IMG/VR virus record: IMGVR_UViG_3300034062_003837 | Coordinates: 1-20,017 of that record | Length of the DNA: 20,017 nucleotides | Source of the DNA: a virus | Reading direction: 5' to 3' (one strand) | In this document: positions 134 to 13,541 of the stretch, piece by piece | Numbering within the stretch: position 1 is the stretch's first letter | How the letters are laid out: every line of letters starts with the position of its first letter | The notes under the pieces: generated by a model | Seen by the model: only the letters and a program-made list of their open reading frames with translations | What the model was told of the DNA's origin: nothing | Databases searched by the model: none | Translations under genes and position numbers: made by a program

Positions 134-220
134 ATCCTATCATTACCTACTGACAAAAATCTAATTACTAGCGAGTAATCTTAAATAGTGAGACGCTCAA
201 GTTTTGTGAGAAAAATCACA
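134..220 (-). promoter_or_regulatory. early promoter P1 with CRP-type site
   Basis: On the minus strand there is an extended -10, TGA-TAGGAT (-10 at 134-139). TTGTCA (151-156) ends exactly 11 nt before that -10. A perfect CRP/GlxR-type palindrome TGTGA-N6-TCACA occupies 205-220, centred about 85.5 bp upstream of the predicted start near 127. GTAAT and ATTAC arms (131-135, 142-146) form a dyad over the -10. It would drive the partial gene at 1-89. Sequence match only; the transcription start is predicted. Confidence 0.65.
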
Positions 221-232
221 TCGTACGTAAAG

Positions 233-241
233 TTATCCACA
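233..241 (+). promoter_or_regulatory. DnaA box
   Basis: An exact TTATCCACA, the strict DnaA-box consensus, lies 12 bp beyond the CRP-type site of P1. The same box recurs upstream of two other early promoters. It could bind host DnaA for transcriptional control or as part of an origin. Confidence 0.6.
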
Positions 242-256
242 GCATGTGTACGACAC

Positions 257-279
257 GCCCGAACGCGCCGGGCATTTTT
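257..279 (+). terminator. possible intrinsic terminator (rightward)
   Basis: GCCCG (257-261) and CGGGC (269-273) form a 5-bp stem with a 7-nt loop, followed by ATTTTTA. Odd point: no rightward gene is visible upstream. It may end an unseen short RNA or be part of the recurring GC-rich block that also includes the CGACACGCC motif (251-259). Confidence 0.35.
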
Positions 280-730: not shown

Positions 731-916
731 TTATAGTACAGCCTTTCCTCTTAGTGTTCCGCTAATTCCGAGAGTGTCGCAAGCGACTTTAACAGATACG
801 CCAACAGGTAATTGTGTTGGGTATGTTGAGATGAATTGAGCAACCGCACCTTTAGAAGGTAGCGAGATTGTTTTGGTAGAACCTGAAAAGGTTTCTAGTT
901 TTACAGTGTAAGTCAT
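731..916 (-). CDS. hypothetical early phage protein, first gene of its operon
   Basis: A 61-residue protein rich in Ser, Thr and Val (start MTYTVKLETFSGSTKTISLP), probably a small beta fold. The ATG is preceded by GAAAGGAAG, a strong ribosome-binding site. Two stacked promoters lie upstream: an extended -10 promoter at 950-972 and a TTGACT promoter at 1069-1097. Each carries its own CRP-type site. No family recognised. Confidence 0.75.
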   Translation of the reverse strand: MTYTVKLETFSGSTKTISLPSKGAVAQFISTYPTQLPVGVSVKVACDTLGISGTLRGKAVL

Positions 917-949: not shown

Positions 950-1015
950 ATCCTATCATTGGGGGCTGACAAATCGGGGTATTTATTCGCTAGGCTCATT
1001 GTGATTTGCATCACA
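950..1015 (-). promoter_or_regulatory. early promoter P2a with CRP-type site
   Basis: Minus strand: extended -10 TGA-TAGGAT (-10 at 950-955), TTGTCA at 967-972 with the fixed 11-nt gap, and a perfect TGTGA-N6-TCACA at 1000-1015, centred about 64.5 bp upstream of the predicted start near 943. A run of C on the minus strand lies between TTGTCA and the -10, as in P3 and P4. Confidence 0.65.
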
Positions 1016-1068: not shown

Positions 1069-1134
1069 ATACTACACTAGAAATGTCAAAAAGTCAAGCC
1101 CAAACACGGCGTGTCGTATGTGATTCTTAACACA
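1069..1134 (-). promoter_or_regulatory. early promoter P2b with CRP-type site
   Basis: Minus strand: TTGACT (1092-1097), 17-bp spacer, TAGTAT (1069-1074). The palindrome ACACGGCGTGT (1104-1114) sits beside the -35. A one-mismatch CRP-type site (TGTGA-N6-ACACA, 1119-1134) starts after a 21-bp gap (1098-1118), the same gap as at P5 and P6. It drives the 327-916 operon from a longer leader than P2a. Confidence 0.6.
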
Positions 1135-1195: not shown

Positions 1196-1258
1196 TTACA
1201 AATTACTTTGTGCGTACAAAAAACCAAACACTAACATTGCAATACACACTACTAACAT
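1196..1258 (-). CDS. 20-residue membrane micropeptide, operon-terminal
   Basis: The ATG overlaps the stop of the preceding gene (TAATG), with GAGGAAAAG just upstream as ribosome-binding site. The product, MLVVCIAMLVFGFLYAQSNL, is one hydrophobic segment long enough to cross a membrane once. It is the last gene of a six-gene leftward operon. The neighbouring operon ends with a very similar 19-residue peptide at 2150-2209, which argues that both are real. Function unknown; small membrane-active regulators or superinfection-type peptides are possibilities only. Confidence 0.6.
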   Translation of the reverse strand: MLVVCIAMLVFGFLYAQSNL

Positions 1259-1347
1259 TACTTTTCCTCAATCTCATCTAGCAATTCCCAGAGAATTGGT
1301 TCTAATTCTTTAGAAACCAAATCTAATTTTTCTTGAAGTGTTTTCAT
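1258..1347 (-). CDS. 29-residue acidic micropeptide
   Basis: Encodes MKTLQEKLDLVSKELEPILW and nine more residues, mostly E, D, L and K, probably one amphipathic helix. Both ends overlap neighbouring genes as TAATG, so it fits the coupled operon 1196-1950. Too short for family recognition. The tight TAATG chain is the main support. Confidence 0.55.
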   Translation of the reverse strand: MKTLQEKLDLVSKELEPILWELLDEIEEK

Positions 1348-1484
1348 TAAACAATCTCCTCAATGTCAATTTCTAAACAATCTGTTTTTAGATTTTCTAG
1401 TTTAGAATTGTAGATTAACCAAGTTGCTTCATCTTGGTCAATAGCATCAACCTCAACGGCAATAGTATAAATAAACTTTGTCAT
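1347..1484 (-). CDS. small hypothetical protein, possible paralogue of the 2213-2353 product
   Basis: A 45-residue acidic protein beginning MTKFIYTIAVEVDAIDQDEA. The pattern of a beta strand, V-E-V-D-A, an acidic turn, A-x-W-L and a later I-D-I is shared with the 46-residue product at 2213-2353, which has V-D-V-E-A and S-W-L. Start and stop overlap neighbours (TAATG on both sides), with GGAGGCTG upstream. Function unknown. Confidence 0.6.
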   Translation of the reverse strand: MTKFIYTIAVEVDAIDQDEATWLIYNSKLENLKTDCLEIDIEEIV

Positions 1485-1645
1485 TATTCAGCCTCCTTAT
1501 CTTTTAGTATGTCAAGAATTAAATCTAATTGTTTTGCAGTAAGCAAAGCCTGAGCACAACCCCATGACCACGCAAGTGCCATGTCACCATAGTGTTTTTT
1601 AGCAAGAGTATTTATCTCTGCAATTATTTCGTTATTGCTTTTCAT
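1484..1645 (-). CDS. small hypothetical phage protein
   Basis: A 53-residue, mostly helical protein containing MALAWSWGCAQALL at residues 22-35 and ending DILKDKEAE. The start overlaps the stop of the preceding gene and the stop overlaps the next start, both as TAATG. It is the third gene of the leftward operon 1196-1950. No recognised domain. Confidence 0.65.
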   Translation of the reverse strand: MKSNNEIIAEINTLAKKHYGDMALAWSWGCAQALLTAKQLDLILDILKDKEAE

Positions 1646-1791
1646 TAGTTTTCTACTTTCTTTAATTCATGATTATTGTTAAGGGGGCGATTGTTATTTG
1701 AGAACATGGACTCAATAACCGCTTTATTTTTTTCTAGTTGAGCAAGTCTTTTTTCTTGTTGCTCTTTTAGTATTCTGTTATAAGTATCCAT
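1645..1791 (-). CDS. 48-residue protein, paralogue of the 3453-3599 product
   Basis: Encodes a charged, helical, glutamine-rich protein (start MDTYNRILKEQQEKRLAQLE). It ends in the motif MFSNNNRPLNN followed by a short polar tail. The rightward operon encodes a same-length relative at 3453-3599 that shares LEQQE/LKEQQE, MFSNN and RPLNN. An independent copy in an opposite operon makes both genes convincing. The single-helix profile suggests a DNA-, RNA- or protein-binding adaptor, but nothing specific is shown. The start lies 1 nt from the preceding stop. Confidence 0.75.
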   Translation of the reverse strand: MDTYNRILKEQQEKRLAQLEKNKAVIESMFSNNNRPLNNNHELKKVEN

Positions 1792-1950
1792 TTATTTAAC
1801 CTCTACTTCTAAGATAGTCCAACCCTTAGACACTTCATAGTCTAAGAGTGAGTTAATTGCTAACTCATCTTTCATTTTAAGAGTTGTTGTAGCAAACTCT
1901 GGATTTCCATAGCGACCAATTCGCTCTACTTTATACTTTAGTGAAAACAT
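1792..1950 (-). CDS. small hypothetical protein, first gene of the 1196-1950 operon
   Basis: A 52-residue protein beginning MFSLKYKVERIGRYGNPEFA and ending GWTILEVEVK, an alternating strand-helix-strand pattern. A strong ribosome-binding site (GAAAGGA) lies 9 nt upstream. It follows a 5'-UTR hairpin (1968-1986) and promoter P3 (2002-2024). The pattern is reminiscent of small phage proteins of unknown function; no family assigned. Confidence 0.7.
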   Translation of the reverse strand: MFSLKYKVERIGRYGNPEFATTTLKMKDELAINSLLDYEVSKGWTILEVEVK

Positions 1951-1967: not shown

Positions 1968-1986
1968 GTTGATAACCTTTATCAAC
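1968..1986 (-). promoter_or_regulatory. 5'-UTR hairpin below P3
   Basis: A perfect 8-bp stem, GTTGATAA/TTATCAAC, with loop AGG on the minus strand. It begins about +10 from the predicted start of P3 and precedes the ribosome-binding site. The equivalent hairpin below P4 has the same size, loop and position but a different stem sequence. Confidence 0.6.
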
Positions 1987-2001
1987 TTTCTTTATACTGA
2001 A

Positions 2002-2077
2002 AGTCTACCACGGGGGACTGACAAATTAGGGACATTCTCGGGCGTGTCGAAAAACTATTTTTGTGATAAACATCACA
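2002..2077 (-). promoter_or_regulatory. early promoter P3 with CRP-type site
   Basis: Minus strand: extended -10 TGG-TAGACT (-10 at 2002-2007), TTGTCA at 2019-2024 (11-nt gap), GGCGTGTCG at 2041-2049 on the plus strand, and a perfect TGTGA-N6-TCACA at 2062-2077, centred about 74.5 bp upstream of the predicted start near 1995. The whole layout repeats at P4 with an offset of exactly 973 bp. Confidence 0.7.
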
Positions 2078-2081
2078 TAAC

Positions 2082-2102
2082 TTATCCACAGAGTTATCCA
2101 CA
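2082..2102 (+). promoter_or_regulatory. two DnaA boxes in direct repeat
   Basis: Exact TTATCCACA at 2082-2090 and 2094-2102, 12 bp apart start to start, right beyond the CRP-type site of P3. Confidence 0.65.
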
Positions 2103-2112
2103 GGGCCCGGTC

Positions 2113-2148
2113 AAAAAATCGCAAGTTTTTAGTTTGCGATCTTTTTTT
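2113..2148. terminator. bidirectional intrinsic terminator
   Basis: ATCGCAA (2118-2124) and TTGCGAT (2134-2140) form a perfect 7-bp stem with a 9-nt loop. It is flanked by A6 on the left and T7 on the right, so it can work on both strands. It directly follows the stop of the last gene of the leftward operon 2150-2924. Confidence 0.8.
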
Positions 2149-2149
2149 A

Positions 2150-2209
2150 TTAACTATGAATTGCAATTACAAAAGCAAAACAAGTTATTGCGATTAGAAT
2201 AACCAACAT
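2150..2209 (-). CDS. 19-residue membrane micropeptide, operon-terminal
   Basis: Encodes MLVILIAITCFAFVIAIHS, a single hydrophobic segment. GGAGAATAACTA precedes the ATG. It is the last gene before the terminator at 2113-2148, the same position as the similar 20-residue peptide at 1196-1258 in the next operon. Both begin MLV. Small size makes the call moderate; the repeated architecture is the main support. Confidence 0.6.
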   Translation of the reverse strand: MLVILIAITCFAFVIAIHS

Positions 2210-2212
2210 TAG

Positions 2213-2353
2213 TTATTCTCCTTTCATTTCTGTATAGTCAATAACATGAAAGTCTAATTGTCTTTCTAATGGCATAGCCTTTAGCCATGAATAAGCAGAC
2301 TCAAAGTCATCTGCCTCAACATCAACGAACAACTCAAAATTAAAAATTGGCAT
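2213..2353 (-). CDS. 46-residue hypothetical protein
   Basis: Starts MPIFNFELFVDVEADDFESA and contains S-W-L at residues 22-24. It is an acidic strand-helix-strand profile resembling the product at 1347-1484. GGAG lies upstream of the ATG, and the preceding stop is 4 nt away. Fourth gene of the leftward operon 2150-2924. Function unknown. Confidence 0.65.
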   Translation of the reverse strand: MPIFNFELFVDVEADDFESAYSWLKAMPLERQLDFHVIDYTEMKGE

Positions 2354-2357
2354 TTAG

Positions 2358-2522
2358 TTATTCTCCTTTCTTGTATAAAAAGTCCCAAGCCTTACGGCAT
2401 AACACAATTGATTTGCAATTGTCACAACAGATAACCCCATGAGGGTTAAGGTCTAAGTCATAGACATCTACGCTTGCAGATGTTGCCCCGCATACGGAGG
2501 GTAGATTTACAAAAGTACTCAT
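2358..2522 (-). CDS. cysteine-rich small protein
   Basis: A 54-residue protein with Cys at 11, 32, 33, 36 and 42. The cluster ICCDNCKSIVLC could bind zinc. The start overlaps the stop of the upstream gene (ATGA), and the operon has several other Cys-rich proteins. Probably a zinc-stabilised adaptor; no specific role can be assigned. Confidence 0.65.
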   Translation of the reverse strand: MSTFVNLPSVCGATSASVDVYDLDLNPHGVICCDNCKSIVLCRKAWDFLYKKGE

Positions 2523-2695
2523 TTAGATACATACCAATCTGTCCACATAGGGAATTGCTCAGGGTCACTATCATAGTAGTAACGCTCAATGTTTTGTTCA
2601 CAATCCATGCAGAAAGTGAATTGCTCATCTCCTACCTCAGAGATAGCAGATACCATAGGTGTATGGTCTTTACATAGTGTGTTTAGTGTAGTCAT
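2519..2695 (-). CDS. small zinc-ribbon-like protein
   Basis: A 58-residue protein with a C-x2-H pair (C8, H11) and a C-x2-C pair (C29, C32), followed by an acidic, aromatic C-terminus (PMWTDWYVSK). The spacing suits one zinc-binding ribbon. Similar short H/C plus C-x-x-C proteins occur in actinobacterial phages, without known function. Ribosome-binding site AAAGGTGG; the stop overlaps the next start. Confidence 0.7.
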   Translation of the reverse strand: MTTLNTLCKDHTPMVSAISEVGDEQFTFCMDCEQNIERYYYDSDPEQFPMWTDWYVSK

Positions 2696-2759
2696 TTATT
2701 GACCACCTTTCTTTTTTTTATTAGTTAATTTTTATTAAGTTTTTTATTTATCTAATTGC

Positions 2760-2924
2760 TTAGAGTGAGCGACCACATTGTGAGTGGAAGCAAGTACCAT
2801 CTGCTTTGCAGATGTCATGGATAGTAGCAGGTGCTAATACAACCTGACCACATTGACAGAGGTTCATTAACCCCTGTGGGTAGTCGCTAAGTGTAGCGAC
2901 TCTTGCAAAGATTGAGTTTGTCAT
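2760..2924 (-). CDS. cysteine-rich small protein, first gene of operon
   Basis: A 54-residue protein with Cys at 23, 25, 39, 45 and 50 and His at 36 and 47, probably zinc-binding. AAAGGAG lies upstream of the ATG. Transcription would come from P4 through a 5'-UTR hairpin at 2941-2959. A 64-nt AT-rich gap separates it from the next gene. Function unknown. Confidence 0.65.
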   Translation of the reverse strand: MTNSIFARVATLSDYPQGLMNLCQCGQVVLAPATIHDICKADGTCFHSQCGRSL

Positions 2925-2940
2925 TTCTGACTCCTTTCTT

Positions 2941-2959
2941 GTTAAAGACCTTCTTTAAC
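2941..2959 (-). promoter_or_regulatory. 5'-UTR hairpin below P4
   Basis: A perfect 8-bp stem, GTTAAAGA/TCTTTAAC, with loop AGG on the minus strand. It lies at the same distance from the promoter as the hairpin at 1968-1986. The stem sequence differs while pairing and loop are kept. Confidence 0.6.
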
Positions 2960-2974
2960 TTTCTTTATACTAGA

Positions 2975-3050
2975 AGTATAACAGGGGGGTCTGACAAATT
3001 AGCCTGTTTCTCGGGCGTGTCTGCAAAGTATTTTTGTGATAAGGGTCACA
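2975..3050 (-). promoter_or_regulatory. early promoter P4 with CRP-type site
   Basis: Minus strand: extended -10 TGT-TATACT (-10 at 2975-2980), TTGTCA at 2992-2997 (11-nt gap), GGCGTGTC at 3014-3021 on the plus strand, and a perfect TGTGA-N6-TCACA at 3035-3050, centred about 74.5 bp upstream of the predicted start near 2968. TATACT-TCT-AGTATA forms a 6-3-6 dyad over the -10. Confidence 0.7.
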
Positions 3051-3054
3051 TGGT

Positions 3055-3088
3055 TTATCCACAGATGAATGGTCTGACCTGTGGATAA
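3055..3088. promoter_or_regulatory. inverted pair of DnaA boxes
   Basis: TTATCCACA (3055-3063) and its complement TGTGGATAA (3080-3088) form a 10-bp inverted repeat, counting the extra G/C, between the divergent promoters P4 and P5. The left box is in register with the one at P3. Confidence 0.65.
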
Positions 3089-3100
3089 CGGCCGGGCAAC

Positions 3101-3166
3101 TGTGGCGCACATCACATTAGAAACACGGCGTGTCGTCTTGACTTTTGGGGGTATCCATGTTATACT
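3101..3166 (+). promoter_or_regulatory. early promoter P5 with CRP-type site
   Basis: TTGACT (3138-3143), 17-bp spacer, extended -10 TGT-TATACT (3161-3166). ACACGGCGTGT lies at 3123-3133. A one-mismatch CRP-type site, TGTGG-N6-TCACA (3101-3116), ends 21 bp before the -35. Predicted start near 3173, so the site is centred at about -64.5. Drives the rightward early genes. Confidence 0.7.
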
Positions 3167-3212: not shown

Positions 3213-3344
3213 ATGAATTCACTGTTTGAAAACAGAAACATAGACCCTAACGCTGAGGAGCGTTTGGCTCAGTTTCGTTGCTCAGAGTGTGGCTATGTAG
3301 GCTCACACAAGCAATACCCTCTATGCTCAAAGCGTGTGGGTTAA
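3213..3344 (+). CDS. 43-residue zinc-ribbon-like protein
   Basis: Start MNSLFENRNIDPNAEERLAQ, then C23-x2-C26 and C38, with H32 as a possible fourth ligand. This is a half-ribbon typical of tiny phage proteins. AAGAAAGGA lies upstream of the ATG, below P5. The last codons overlap the CRP-type site of P6 (3335-3350), so its 3' end doubles as regulatory DNA. Function unknown. Confidence 0.7.
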   Translation: MNSLFENRNIDPNAEERLAQFRCSECGYVGSHKQYPLCSKRVG

Positions 3345-3401
3345 ATCACATCAGCCTAACGGCGTGTCGCCTTGACTTTTGTCGGCGGTATCTGATAGGA
3401 T
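3335..3401 (+). promoter_or_regulatory. early promoter P6 with CRP-type site
   Basis: TTGACT (3372-3377), 18-bp spacer, extended -10 TGA-TAGGAT (3396-3401). CGGCGTGTCG lies at 3360-3369. TGTGG-N6-TCACA at 3335-3350 ends exactly 21 bp before the -35, as at P5. ATAGGA-TAC-TCCTAT (3395-3409) is a perfect dyad over the -10. Drives the genes from 3453. Confidence 0.65.
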
Positions 3402-3452
3402 ACTCCTATAACAATTAAATAAGATTAACTACTAAAGAAAGGTACTCATTAA

Positions 3453-3599
3453 ATGAATACACTAGAAAGAATTAGACTAGAACAGCAAGAACGCTACGCT
3501 AAACAGCGTGAGGCTAATCAGGCTAAGATAGAGGCTATGTTCTCTAACAATGTTCGCCCCCTAAATAACTCATACCTACTAACGAAAGAAGAAAACTAA
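3453..3599 (+). CDS. 48-residue protein, paralogue of the 1645-1791 product
   Basis: Starts MNTLERIRLEQQERYAKQRE and carries MFSNNVRPLNN near the C-terminus. It has the same length as the leftward gene at 1645-1791, with close similarity in the central helix and this motif. AGAAAGG lies upstream, below P6. Likely a single long helix plus a polar tail. Function unknown; the duplication across opposite operons points to a useful early role. Confidence 0.75.
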   Translation: MNTLERIRLEQQERYAKQREANQAKIEAMFSNNVRPLNNSYLLTKEEN

Positions 3600-3601
3600 T
3601 T

Positions 3602-3769
3602 ATGACTATCACATTCTCAATTTGGCAAGGCTCAAAACTCATCTCAATCGATAACACTGCTAATGATGTTAAGTTTATTGACAATCTAATCAACACGCTA
3701 AACGATAGCGAATTAGGCAAGGGTAAGAAATTTACTGCTAACGTTATGGACATTAAGGTAACTAACTAA
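3602..3769 (+). CDS. 55-residue hypothetical early protein
   Basis: Starts MTITFSIWQGSKLISIDNTA and ends KKFTANVMDIKVTN, a probable alpha/beta mini-domain with terminal strands. It begins 2 nt after the preceding stop and its own stop abuts the next ATG, so it is part of the rightward operon 3213-4015. The opposite strand also has an open frame over part of this stretch, but this strand has the operon structure. No family recognised. Confidence 0.7.
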   Translation: MTITFSIWQGSKLISIDNTANDVKFIDNLINTLNDSELGKGKKFTANVMDIKVTN

Positions 3770-3910
3770 ATGACAATCGAATTAGATAACTATGGCTTTA
3801 TGCTTGACCTAGGTGACTTGCTCTATGTATCTCTATCATGGGCTATGCTAATTACTAGCGCAGTTATTTTTGCGGGGTATAAGATTTACAAAAGAAAGAA
3901 GGCTAAGTAA
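3770..3910 (+). CDS. 46-residue single-pass membrane protein
   Basis: An acidic N-terminus (MTIELDNYGFMLDLGD) is followed by a hydrophobic segment at about residues 17-36 and a basic tail (KIYKRKKAK). By the positive-inside rule the C-terminus should face the cytoplasm. Start and stop directly abut the neighbouring genes. It could be a small early membrane protein that modifies the host envelope; nothing more specific is visible. Confidence 0.7.
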   Translation: MTIELDNYGFMLDLGDLLYVSLSWAMLITSAVIFAGYKIYKRKKAK

Positions 3911-4015
3911 ATGCTATCAGCAATGTATGCACACACATGTGAAACATGTGGAGATACAGGCTTGATTATATTTGATCAAGACAAAACACACATAGACCCT
4001 TGCAAATGTAATTAG
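3911..4015 (+). CDS. 34-residue zinc-ribbon protein
   Basis: Starts MLSAMYAHTCETCGDTGLII and ends IDPCKCN. C10-x2-C13 and C31-x-C33 form a complete four-cysteine set, similar to a DnaJ-type or transcript-factor mini-ribbon. Last gene of the rightward early operon; the ATG abuts the previous TAA. Function unknown. Confidence 0.65.
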   Translation: MLSAMYAHTCETCGDTGLIIFDQDKTHIDPCKCN

Positions 4016-4186: not shown

Positions 4187-4387
4187 TCACCATTTATCCA
4201 CAGGACATTTAGCATTCTTAAGGGTAGTCTTTAATGTCATAAAACATCCACACTTTCTACATGTTTGAGATAGTTTTCTAAAAAATGGACATCCTCTACA
4301 AATTTCAAGGCGGTATGCAACCAATTCCTCCTGGGACCTAGGTGAATTAGGATTTAATAAATCCCATGGCTTAACATCATCTGACAT
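4187..4387 (-). CDS. 66-residue phage zinc-ribbon protein
   Basis: I chose the internal ATG at 4387 (MSDDVKPWDLLNPNSPRSQE) over an upstream start at 4459. The upstream extension is AT-rich, hydrophobic and unlike the rest, and a TATAAT box (4394-4399) places the predicted transcription start exactly on this ATG. Six cysteines (30, 33, 43, 46, 48, 61) appear as C-x2-C, C-x2-C-G-C and a final CPVDKW. This pattern (C-x2-C, then CxxCGCxM, then CPxxKW) is widespread in tailed phages, always as an unknown small zinc ribbon. It is leftward and alone between the early and late blocks, probably leaderless. Confidence 0.8.
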   Translation of the reverse strand: MSDDVKPWDLLNPNSPRSQEELVAYRLEICRGCPFFRKLSQTCRKCGCFMTLKTTLKNAKCPVDKW

Positions 4388-12087: not shown

Positions 12088-12792
12088 ATGAAGCATATTA
12101 TAACATTTACAGACATTGATAATCCAGAAGGTGTATTAGAAAAACCACGTCCAGCATCAGAATTTATTCCAGAATGGTATAAAAATGCAAAAACATACCT
12201 TCACCCAAGTGGTAAACAAAAACTAATAGATGATGGATCGCCTTATTCATCAGTAAAAAAATGTATGCCAGTATTTGATATGATGACTGCTGGATATATT
12301 ATGCAAACACCTTATGATATTTATATAACTCAAACTCCAGATGGTCCATATTTTCAGTGGGGCGAAATGAAAGCAATACACTTTCAATCAATGGAGCAAA
12401 CACAAAATCATCCATATTTTAGAGATATAAACTATGCTGCAAGAATCATACATCCTTGGAGTATTAAAACTCCAAAAGGCTGGTCTATTATGGTTATGGA
12501 GCCACAACATCATGAGCCAGGCCCAATTGCTGTTTCTAGCGGTATTGTTGATACAGACAAACACCAGATGCCATTTAATATATTTTTAAAACTTAGAGAT
12601 TCAAATTTTGAAGGAGTGATAGAAGCAGGAACCCCATTGGTTCAGATTATTCCATTTAAAAGACAAGACTGGGAGTCTAGACTAGGAAAAGAAAAAGATA
12701 AAGATAATATTAAAGTGTATTCTCGTAAATGGAATACAAGGTTTTTTGATCAATATAAAAAAATGTCTTGGAGCAGAAAGAGTTATAAATAA
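12088..12792 (+). CDS. DUF6065-like phage protein, copy 1
   Basis: A 234-residue protein. Conserved blocks shared with the next gene: KPRPASEFIPEWYKN near the N-terminus, KKCMPVFDMMTAGYIM at residues about 54-69, H-F-Q-S-M-E-Q with a following HP, I-H-P-W-S-I-K-T-P-K-G, SSGIVDTD, EAGTPLVQIIPFKR, and a terminal FFDQYKKMS-type tail. I recall a family of about 240 residues with 'P-x-W-Y-K' and 'C-M-P-x-x-D' in marine phages, named DUF6065 in Pfam; I could not check it. No signal peptide or membrane segment. It sits among receptor-binding genes, so a role in fibre modification or as a virion enzyme is possible but unproven. Confidence 0.8.
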   Translation: MKHIITFTDIDNPEGVLEKPRPASEFIPEWYKNAKTYLHPSGKQKLIDDGSPYSSVKKCMPVFDMMTAGYIMQTPYDIYITQTPDGPYFQWGEMKAIHFQSMEQTQNHPYFRDINYAARIIHPWSIKTPKGWSIMVMEPQHHEPGPIAVSSGIVDTDKHQMPFNIFLKLRDSNFEGVIEAGTPLVQIIPFKRQDWESRLGKEKDKDNIKVYSRKWNTRFFDQYKKMSWSRKSYK

Positions 12793-13541
12793 TGACAATT
12801 ATTAAATTTACAGATACAATAGGTGTTCCTGAAGAATACCGTCCAAAACCAGCAGATAGGTTTGTACCTGATTGGTATAAAAATTTAGAGTCTTATATTA
12901 GTGGTGAAAAAAAACCTGATGGAAATGGTGGAACTAGCGCAACAGCAAAAAGATGTATGCCTATCTTTGATGCAATTTCAGGCGGGTATATATTAACTAC
13001 CTATGTTGATGTATGGGTAAAACAAGTTCCTCAAGTTCCAGAAGCAACCCTTGTAGATGAAAATACAGATATGTCACAATTTCCAACACAGCCATTTTAT
13101 GAATGGCCTTCATTTGGTCCATTAGGATTTCATCCATTAGAGCAGGCTCCTCAGCATCCAGGAAAGGGTGCTCATAAATTATCATATCCAAAATGGATTA
13201 ACCCTTGGGCAATTACAACACCGCCAGGGTACTCAACATTATTTATTTCTCCAATGCATAGAGAATCTATGTTTACTATTCTTCCTGGTATTGTAGATAC
13301 CGATCAATATAAGGCTGCTGTTAATTTCCCATTTGTATTAAATGAGGCAGATAAGTTTGAGGGTCTAATTCCTGCAGGTACCCCGATGGCTCAGGTTATT
13401 CCATTCAAGAGAGATTCTTGGCAGATGGAGTTAGGTACTATGGAGGACTTCAATGAACAGGCCAGGGTAACAAGTAAACTACGCACCAAATTCTTTGATT
13501 CCTACAAAACACAGTATAGGCAACTAAAAGAATATAAGTAG
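12792..13541 (+). CDS. DUF6065-like phage protein, copy 2
   Basis: A 249-residue tandem paralogue of the preceding product; the ATG overlaps the previous stop by one base (TAATG). Shared blocks: YRPKPADRFVPDWYKN, RCMPIFDAISGGYIL, F-H-P-L-E-Q, N-P-W-A-I-T-T-P-P-G, PGIVDTDQY, PAGTPMAQVIPFKR and FFDSYK. An insertion near residues 85-105 (PEATLVDENTDMSQFP) is absent from copy 1. Conserved His, Asp and Cys positions could be catalytic, but no known active-site signature is evident. Function unknown. Confidence 0.8.
   Translation: MTIIKFTDTIGVPEEYRPKPADRFVPDWYKNLESYISGEKKPDGNGGTSATAKRCMPIFDAISGGYILTTYVDVWVKQVPQVPEATLVDENTDMSQFPTQPFYEWPSFGPLGFHPLEQAPQHPGKGAHKLSYPKWINPWAITTPPGYSTLFISPMHRESMFTILPGIVDTDQYKAAVNFPFVLNEADKFEGLIPAGTPMAQVIPFKRDSWQMELGTMEDFNEQARVTSKLRTKFFDSYKTQYRQLKEYK

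Follow-up and report, generated by a model that had tools for sequence, protein, structure and literature searches.

The control region studied here recurs as a cassette at the heads of operons of tiny viral genes, and we consider it probable (roughly 0.7) that such cassettes are class-I-CRP-like promoters which double as homologous joints for the shuffling of accessory operons. The window, i.e. the whole stretch of DNA analysed, is an entire IMG/VR virus record of 20,017 bp (38.6% GC); the record is classed as linear and is probably a fragment. A preliminary description had reported a duplicate of one early control region, corresponding to P3 and P4 in Table 1. The two copies are real, but the term understated the situation, as the window contains seven cassettes, not two, of two promoter architectures.

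The TGTGAN6TCACA dyad (≤1 mismatch) occurs seven times in the whole window (1.1 expected), a number reached in 0 of 100 shuffles, and each of the seven dyads has a promoter downstream of it, of type A in four cases and of type B in three. The element GACACGCC, equivalent to GGCGTGTC, and the DnaA box TTATCCACA are each present six times (0.14 and 0.27 expected, respectively), and no shuffle reached either count. All six copies of GGCGTGTC and five of the six DnaA boxes lie at cassettes, the remaining box being at position 4194. The order of the elements is as follows: a GC-rich element close to where the preceding unit ends; in several of the copies, one or two DnaA boxes; the CRP/GlxR-type dyad; usually GACACGCC; and then a core promoter of type A or B. 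In some copies the leader also forms an AGG-loop hairpin ahead of the ribosome site. The type A core consists of TTTGTCAG and an extended -10, without a normal -35, and in the window cassettes its -10 hexamer begins 18 bases downstream of the first T of TTTGTCAG. The type B core consists of TTGACTTTT and an extended -10; the three window examples have TTGACT followed, after 17-18 bp, by a -10, and two of the three have it in extended form.

Table 1. Cassettes, operons and associated features of the window (positions in bp).
Feature	Coordinates	Strand	Parts and remarks
P1, type A	134-259	-	-10 TAGGAT 134-139; TTTGTCAG 150-157; CRP dyad 205-220; DnaA box 233-241; GGCGTGTC 252-259
P2, type A	950-1015	-	-10 950-955; TTTGTCAG 966-973; CRP dyad 1000-1015; serves the 61-aa gene 731-916 (-)
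P2b, type B	1069-1134	-	upstream of and in tandem with P2; -10 1069-1074; TTGACT 1092-1097; GACACGCC 1108-1115; CRP-like dyad (1 mismatch) 1119-1134
P3 operon	1196-1950	-	ORFs 1792-1950, 1645-1791, 1484-1645, 1347-1484, 29-aa ORF, 20-aa peptide
P3-operon terminal peptide MLVVCIAMLVFGFLYAQSNL	1258-1196	-	20 aa, hydrophobic
P3, type A	1968-2102	-	hairpin 1968-1986; -10 2002-2007; TTTGTCAG 2018-2025; GACACGCC 2041-2048; CRP dyad 2062-2077; DnaA boxes 2082-2090 and 2094-2102
10-bp hairpin	2118-2140		between the P4 operon and P3; T on one side, A on the other
P4 operon	2150-2924	-	ORFs 2760-2924, 2519-2695, 2358-2522, 2213-2353, 19-aa peptide
P4-operon terminal peptide MLVILIAITCFAFVIAIHS	2209-2150	-	19 aa, hydrophobic
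P4, type A	2941-3063	-	hairpin 2941-2959; -10 2975-2980; TTTGTCAG 2991-2998; GACACGCC 3014-3021; CRP dyad 3035-3050; DnaA box 3055-3063
P5, type B	3101-3166	+	divergent from P4; CRP-like dyad 3101-3116; GGCGTGTC 3127-3134; TTGACT 3138-3143; -10 TATACT 3161-3166; reverse DnaA box just upstream, 3080-3088
P5/P6 tiny-gene units	3213-4015	+	P5: 3213-3344; P6: 3453-3599, 3602-3769, 3770-3910, 3911-4015
P6, type B	3335-3401	+	CRP-like dyad 3335-3350; GGCGTGTC 3361-3368; TTGACT 3372-3377; -10 TAGGAT 3396-3401

The distance from the dyad centre to the first base of the -10 is 52.5 bp in P2, P2b and P5, 53.5 bp in P6, 62.5 bp in P3 and P4, and 73.5 bp in P1, so that the spacings differ by whole turns of DNA; the centre lies 29.5 bp from the -35 in P2b, P5 and P6. 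Displacement in phase with the helix, as seen here, is the hallmark of CRP activation of the class I type. If transcription is presumed to start 7 bp downstream of the -10, the dyad centres fall at about -64.5, -74.5 and -85.5, i.e. around 3 bp further upstream than the E. coli class I register of -61.5, -71.5 and -82.5.

The preliminary description had proposed searching relatives for more copies, and hundreds were found in related viral contigs, either in the same register or displaced from it by a whole number of helical turns. In IMG/VR, 231 stretches encode a relative of the 61-aa P2 protein, and the type B core GGCGTGTCGNCTTGACTTTT is matched exactly in at least 119 stretches. In approximately 200 related stretches there were 363 matches to the type A pattern and 367 to the type B pattern (6 and 26 in shuffles, respectively), although a dyad (≤1 mismatch) was absent within the searched range from about one third of the former and one fifth of the latter. 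Spacing was counted in a set of 200 loci (1.15 Mb of unique DNA), in which perfect dyads number 328, compared to 1-3 in shuffles. The distance from the start of TTTGTCAG to the dyad centre is mostly 34.5 (17 cases), 44.5 (14) or 55.5 bp (12), TTTGTCAG never lies on the wrong side of the dyad, and the -10 is found at exactly +18 from TTTGTCAG in 135 of 178 cases. From the start of TTGACTTTT the dyad (≤1 mismatch) is 29.5 bp (65 cases) or 39.5 bp (16 cases) away. The spacings fall into only about five classes on one lattice, with a Rayleigh p of ∼3e-9 or smaller, a value that overstates the significance because the relatives share kinship and are not independent. One type A class, with a spacing of 57.5-58.5 bp, misses this lattice by half a turn, but in 28 of the 29 cases there is a further dyad (≤2 mismatches) at 70.5-74.5 bp, which is in phase. 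In the long relatives (117-119 kb), the cassette elements are grouped in one part of the genome.

The cassettes with the 57.5-58.5 bp spacing (e.g. L107 2793 and L215 9931) contain two abutting CRP dyads and TGTCCG, which usually replaces GACACGCC, and represent a third cassette architecture. In relative G024 (L213/L214), the upstream edge of cassettes is marked by a GACGTC palindrome (complete or partial GGGACGTCCC), examples being the cassettes whose dyads are at 94980, 97221, 98569, 99813 and 102827; its position is occupied in the window by GGGCCCGG or GCCGGGC. This palindrome may be a phage-specific operator or a boundary element.

The P3/P4 pair was described as a gapless alignment of 1968-2091 with 2941-3064 at an offset of 973 bp, and this was reproduced, with 97 of 124 positions identical (blastn E 1.2e-25); an unguided repeat search extended the match to 1966-2092 and 2939-3065 (79%). 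All of the named elements are present in both copies in the same register, namely the extended -10, TTTGTCAG, GACACGCC, TGTGAN6TCACA and TTATCCACA. The statement that spacing was kept while the filler drifted also holds, because 50 of 53 element positions are identical, compared to 47 of 71 in the bases between them.

Both leaders contain the same 8-bp hairpin with an AGG loop but different stems, GTTGATAA/TTATCAAC in P3 and GTTAAAGA/TCTTTAAC in P4, and the changes are compensated (folding z of -7.5 and -3.2, respectively). Across the cassettes, 20 distinct hairpins show two-sided changes in 42 cells, compared to 11.7 in shuffles. Because these hairpins had been picked for their stems, a second, unbiased set was picked solely by the position of A-AGG-T. 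This set is bimodal: 42 of 110 contexts have 6-7 of 7 pairs, none has 5, and the rest, which are ordinary ribosome sites, have 0-4 of 7. The AGG-loop hairpin is therefore real and covaries; its role may be stabilising or translational.

As described previously, the P3 and P4 copies each head an operon of tiny ORFs, the last of which encodes a hydrophobic peptide of 19-20 aa; counting both window copies, peptides related to these two occur 21 times in 12 variants. The hairpin between the P4 operon and P3, reported on the plus strand, is probably a bidirectional terminator, its minus-strand T run being read from the sequence. No paralogy was detectable between the genes of the P3 and P4 operons. 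The only clear pair of paralogues is 1645-1791 (P3 operon) and 3453-3599 (P6 operon), with a z of 19, and duplication at the operon level was rejected, this being the sole clear pair. The incidence of the genes ranges from near-core (731-916, 177 loci) to rare (1347-1484 and 3213-3344, one locus each). The 61-aa protein encoded by 731-916 is 78-92% identical across sampled contigs of relatives (231 stretches), and the cassette in front of its gene keeps the 52.5-bp spacing throughout. The protein gave no match in Pfam or among 50,697 phage records. The control regions themselves had no DNA match among these 50,697 records, and the exact pattern TTTGTCAGNCCCCCNNTGNTANNNT had none in IMG/VR, the probable cause being its C-run constraint. 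Searches of Rfam and for tRNAs gave no matches.

Conservation of the cassette does not extend to the genes behind it, and the cassette may therefore also serve as a stretch of homology for joining and swapping operons. Among 609 pairs of similar cassettes (≥85% identity over ≥95 nt), 81, representing 20 family pairs, precede unrelated first genes; swaps are the minority, with the same first-gene family kept in 528 pairs. The cluster containing P3 and P4 of the window heads five first-gene families. One cassette (L009) is 93.9% identical to P4, yet a different gene lies behind it. This cassette is chimeric, P3-like upstream and P4-like downstream (p 0.0017), and its single operon merges homologues of 2519-2695 from the P4 operon and 1484-1645 from the P3 operon. 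A second candidate chimera, L036, was unsupported (p 0.53). Homologous recombination between cassettes is thus the likely route of operon exchange. The idea of an expandable cassette put forward in the preliminary description is borne out by the near-identical cassettes before unrelated first genes, the chimeric cassette and the lack of paralogy between the P3 and P4 operon genes.

No CRP-family HTH domain was detected in the window or in the 41 relatives searched with it (42 records), whereas each of the 14 control genomes has one. A phage-encoded CRP was rejected on this basis, and the reader of the cassette must therefore be host-derived; it is likely to be a host CRP/GlxR protein. The dyad consensus TGTGAtNtaNaTCACA agrees with the GlxR consensus TGTGANNTANNTCACA (PMC4254451). 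WhiB is encoded in 25 of the 42 related records and, among the controls, only in C. glutamicum, and the group was therefore marked as actinophages; WhiB was not found in the 20-kb window fragment. We infer an actinobacterial host for this fragment, possibly of the freshwater Nanopelagicales type, isolated phages of which have been described (PMC10202952). The sole match in a bacterial genome was a 7.9-kb contig carrying the phage gene in a Flavobacteriia MAG (L202, CANHQP010000079.1). It was set aside as evidence of the host, the contig being judged to be probably mis-binned phage DNA.

In the mechanism that we propose, host cAMP-CRP (GlxR) would bind the dyad at a helix-phased distance and, acting as at class I promoters, would bring host RNA polymerase to the tiny-gene operon, and the conserved cassette would supply the homology at which phages join and swap operons. 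Binding and activation by CRP are predicted; early timing of the cassettes is presumed, as are roles for DnaA and for a factor recognising GACACGCC. Could the cassettes instead be primarily repressor operators, used in immunity or temporal shut-off in the manner of stoperators, with repressors bound at TTTGTCAG, GACACGCC and the dyad, and CRP not activating? The exact distance between the -10 and TTTGTCAG, which is placed in the promoter spacer, and the occurrence of GACACGCC in both orientations would fit such operators, and there is a precedent in phage T1, where cAMP-CRP represses a phage promoter (PMC6737242). However, the dyad shifts by whole turns and always stays upstream of the core, which activation needs and simple blocking does not, and the Cluster A stoperator sequence is absent (no window match with ≤2 mismatches to the consensus GGTGGMTGTCAAG). 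We regard this explanation as unlikely.

Considerably less probable is that the cassettes are replication elements, i.e. iteron or DnaA-box arrays whose likeness to promoters is secondary. The enrichment of TTATCCACA and its concentration in the cassette region of complete relatives agree with this, but the DnaA boxes are not phased to the dyad (R 0.16), several cassettes (P2, P2b) have none, and relative G001 has five boxes packed densely together in a different place; moreover, conservation extends to the core promoter, the leader hairpin and the ribosome site. Two gapless copies at a single offset would also result from a plain, recent duplication in tandem with no regulatory meaning. This reading hardly deserves credence, given that the elements were kept while the filler drifted, the hairpin changes are compensated, copies exist in more than 100 other contigs and the genes behind the copies are not paralogous.

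The reading as phased promoters that also act as joints has partial parallels in several known systems. The SAS/ESAS elements of cluster K mycobacteriophages, with a 13-bp translation-start core and 17-bp inverted repeats (PMC3203893), are likewise multi-copy conserved elements of actinophages, placed immediately before many small genes that belong to different families. The present cassette differs in that it comprises a complete promoter and, in phase with it, a CRP-type dyad, and the SAS consensus GGGATAGGAGCCC next to a start codon had no match with ≤2 mismatches. The class I promoters of E. coli CRP and C. glutamicum GlxR share with the cassette a TGTGAN6TCACA dyad upstream of the core, at distances on a ∼10.5-bp lattice of integral helical turns; in contrast to them, the cassettes are phage-borne, present in many copies per genome and often accompanied by GACACGCC and DnaA boxes, and their register would be offset by ∼3 bp at the presumed start sites. 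At the phage T1 pir promoter, host cAMP-CRP represses a lysis switch in E. coli (PMC6737242). There, too, a phage promoter reads host CRP, which in our case is a prediction from sequence, whereas the present geometry suggests activation, and many accessory operons of actinophages are concerned. The stoperators of Cluster A mycobacteriophages are also repeated regulatory sites in actinophages, whereas those described here are found only at operon heads.

WhiB is a known partner of WhiA in Streptomyces, and the relatives carry WhiB. The WhiA core GACAC occurs in either orientation at Streptomyces targets (PMC3781837) and is contained, again in either orientation, in GACACGCC, the phage element being longer and stricter; so short a motif cannot prove that WhiA is involved, and WhiA is a lead as a candidate reader. 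The action of host CRP on a phage promoter is already known (T1, repression), while multi-copy cassettes phased to CRP sites were not found described for phages in the open-access literature.

More tentatively, and with somewhat less than even confidence, we suggest that, throughout a group of freshwater actinophages, one standard cassette links the accessory genome to the cAMP-CRP/GlxR, the DnaA and perhaps the WhiA of the host and also serves as a recombination joint. If this is right, phages of uncultured bacteria wire accessory genes to the metabolic state of the host using many copies of one activator-type promoter, and the shared promoter homology physically explains the rapid exchange of tiny genes. 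The cassette would then be a signature for locating accessory operons of unknown function and a source of ready-made promoters for CRP/GlxR studies.

Two further observations concern other loci. The five-box cluster of G001 (L216, 20709-20786), with five TTATCCACA in 77 bp away from the cassettes, is a candidate replication origin. In the window, 12088-12792 and 12792-13541 (+) are tandem paralogues of phrog_7084, and the best named-phage matches of the latter copy are haloarchaeal tailed viruses.
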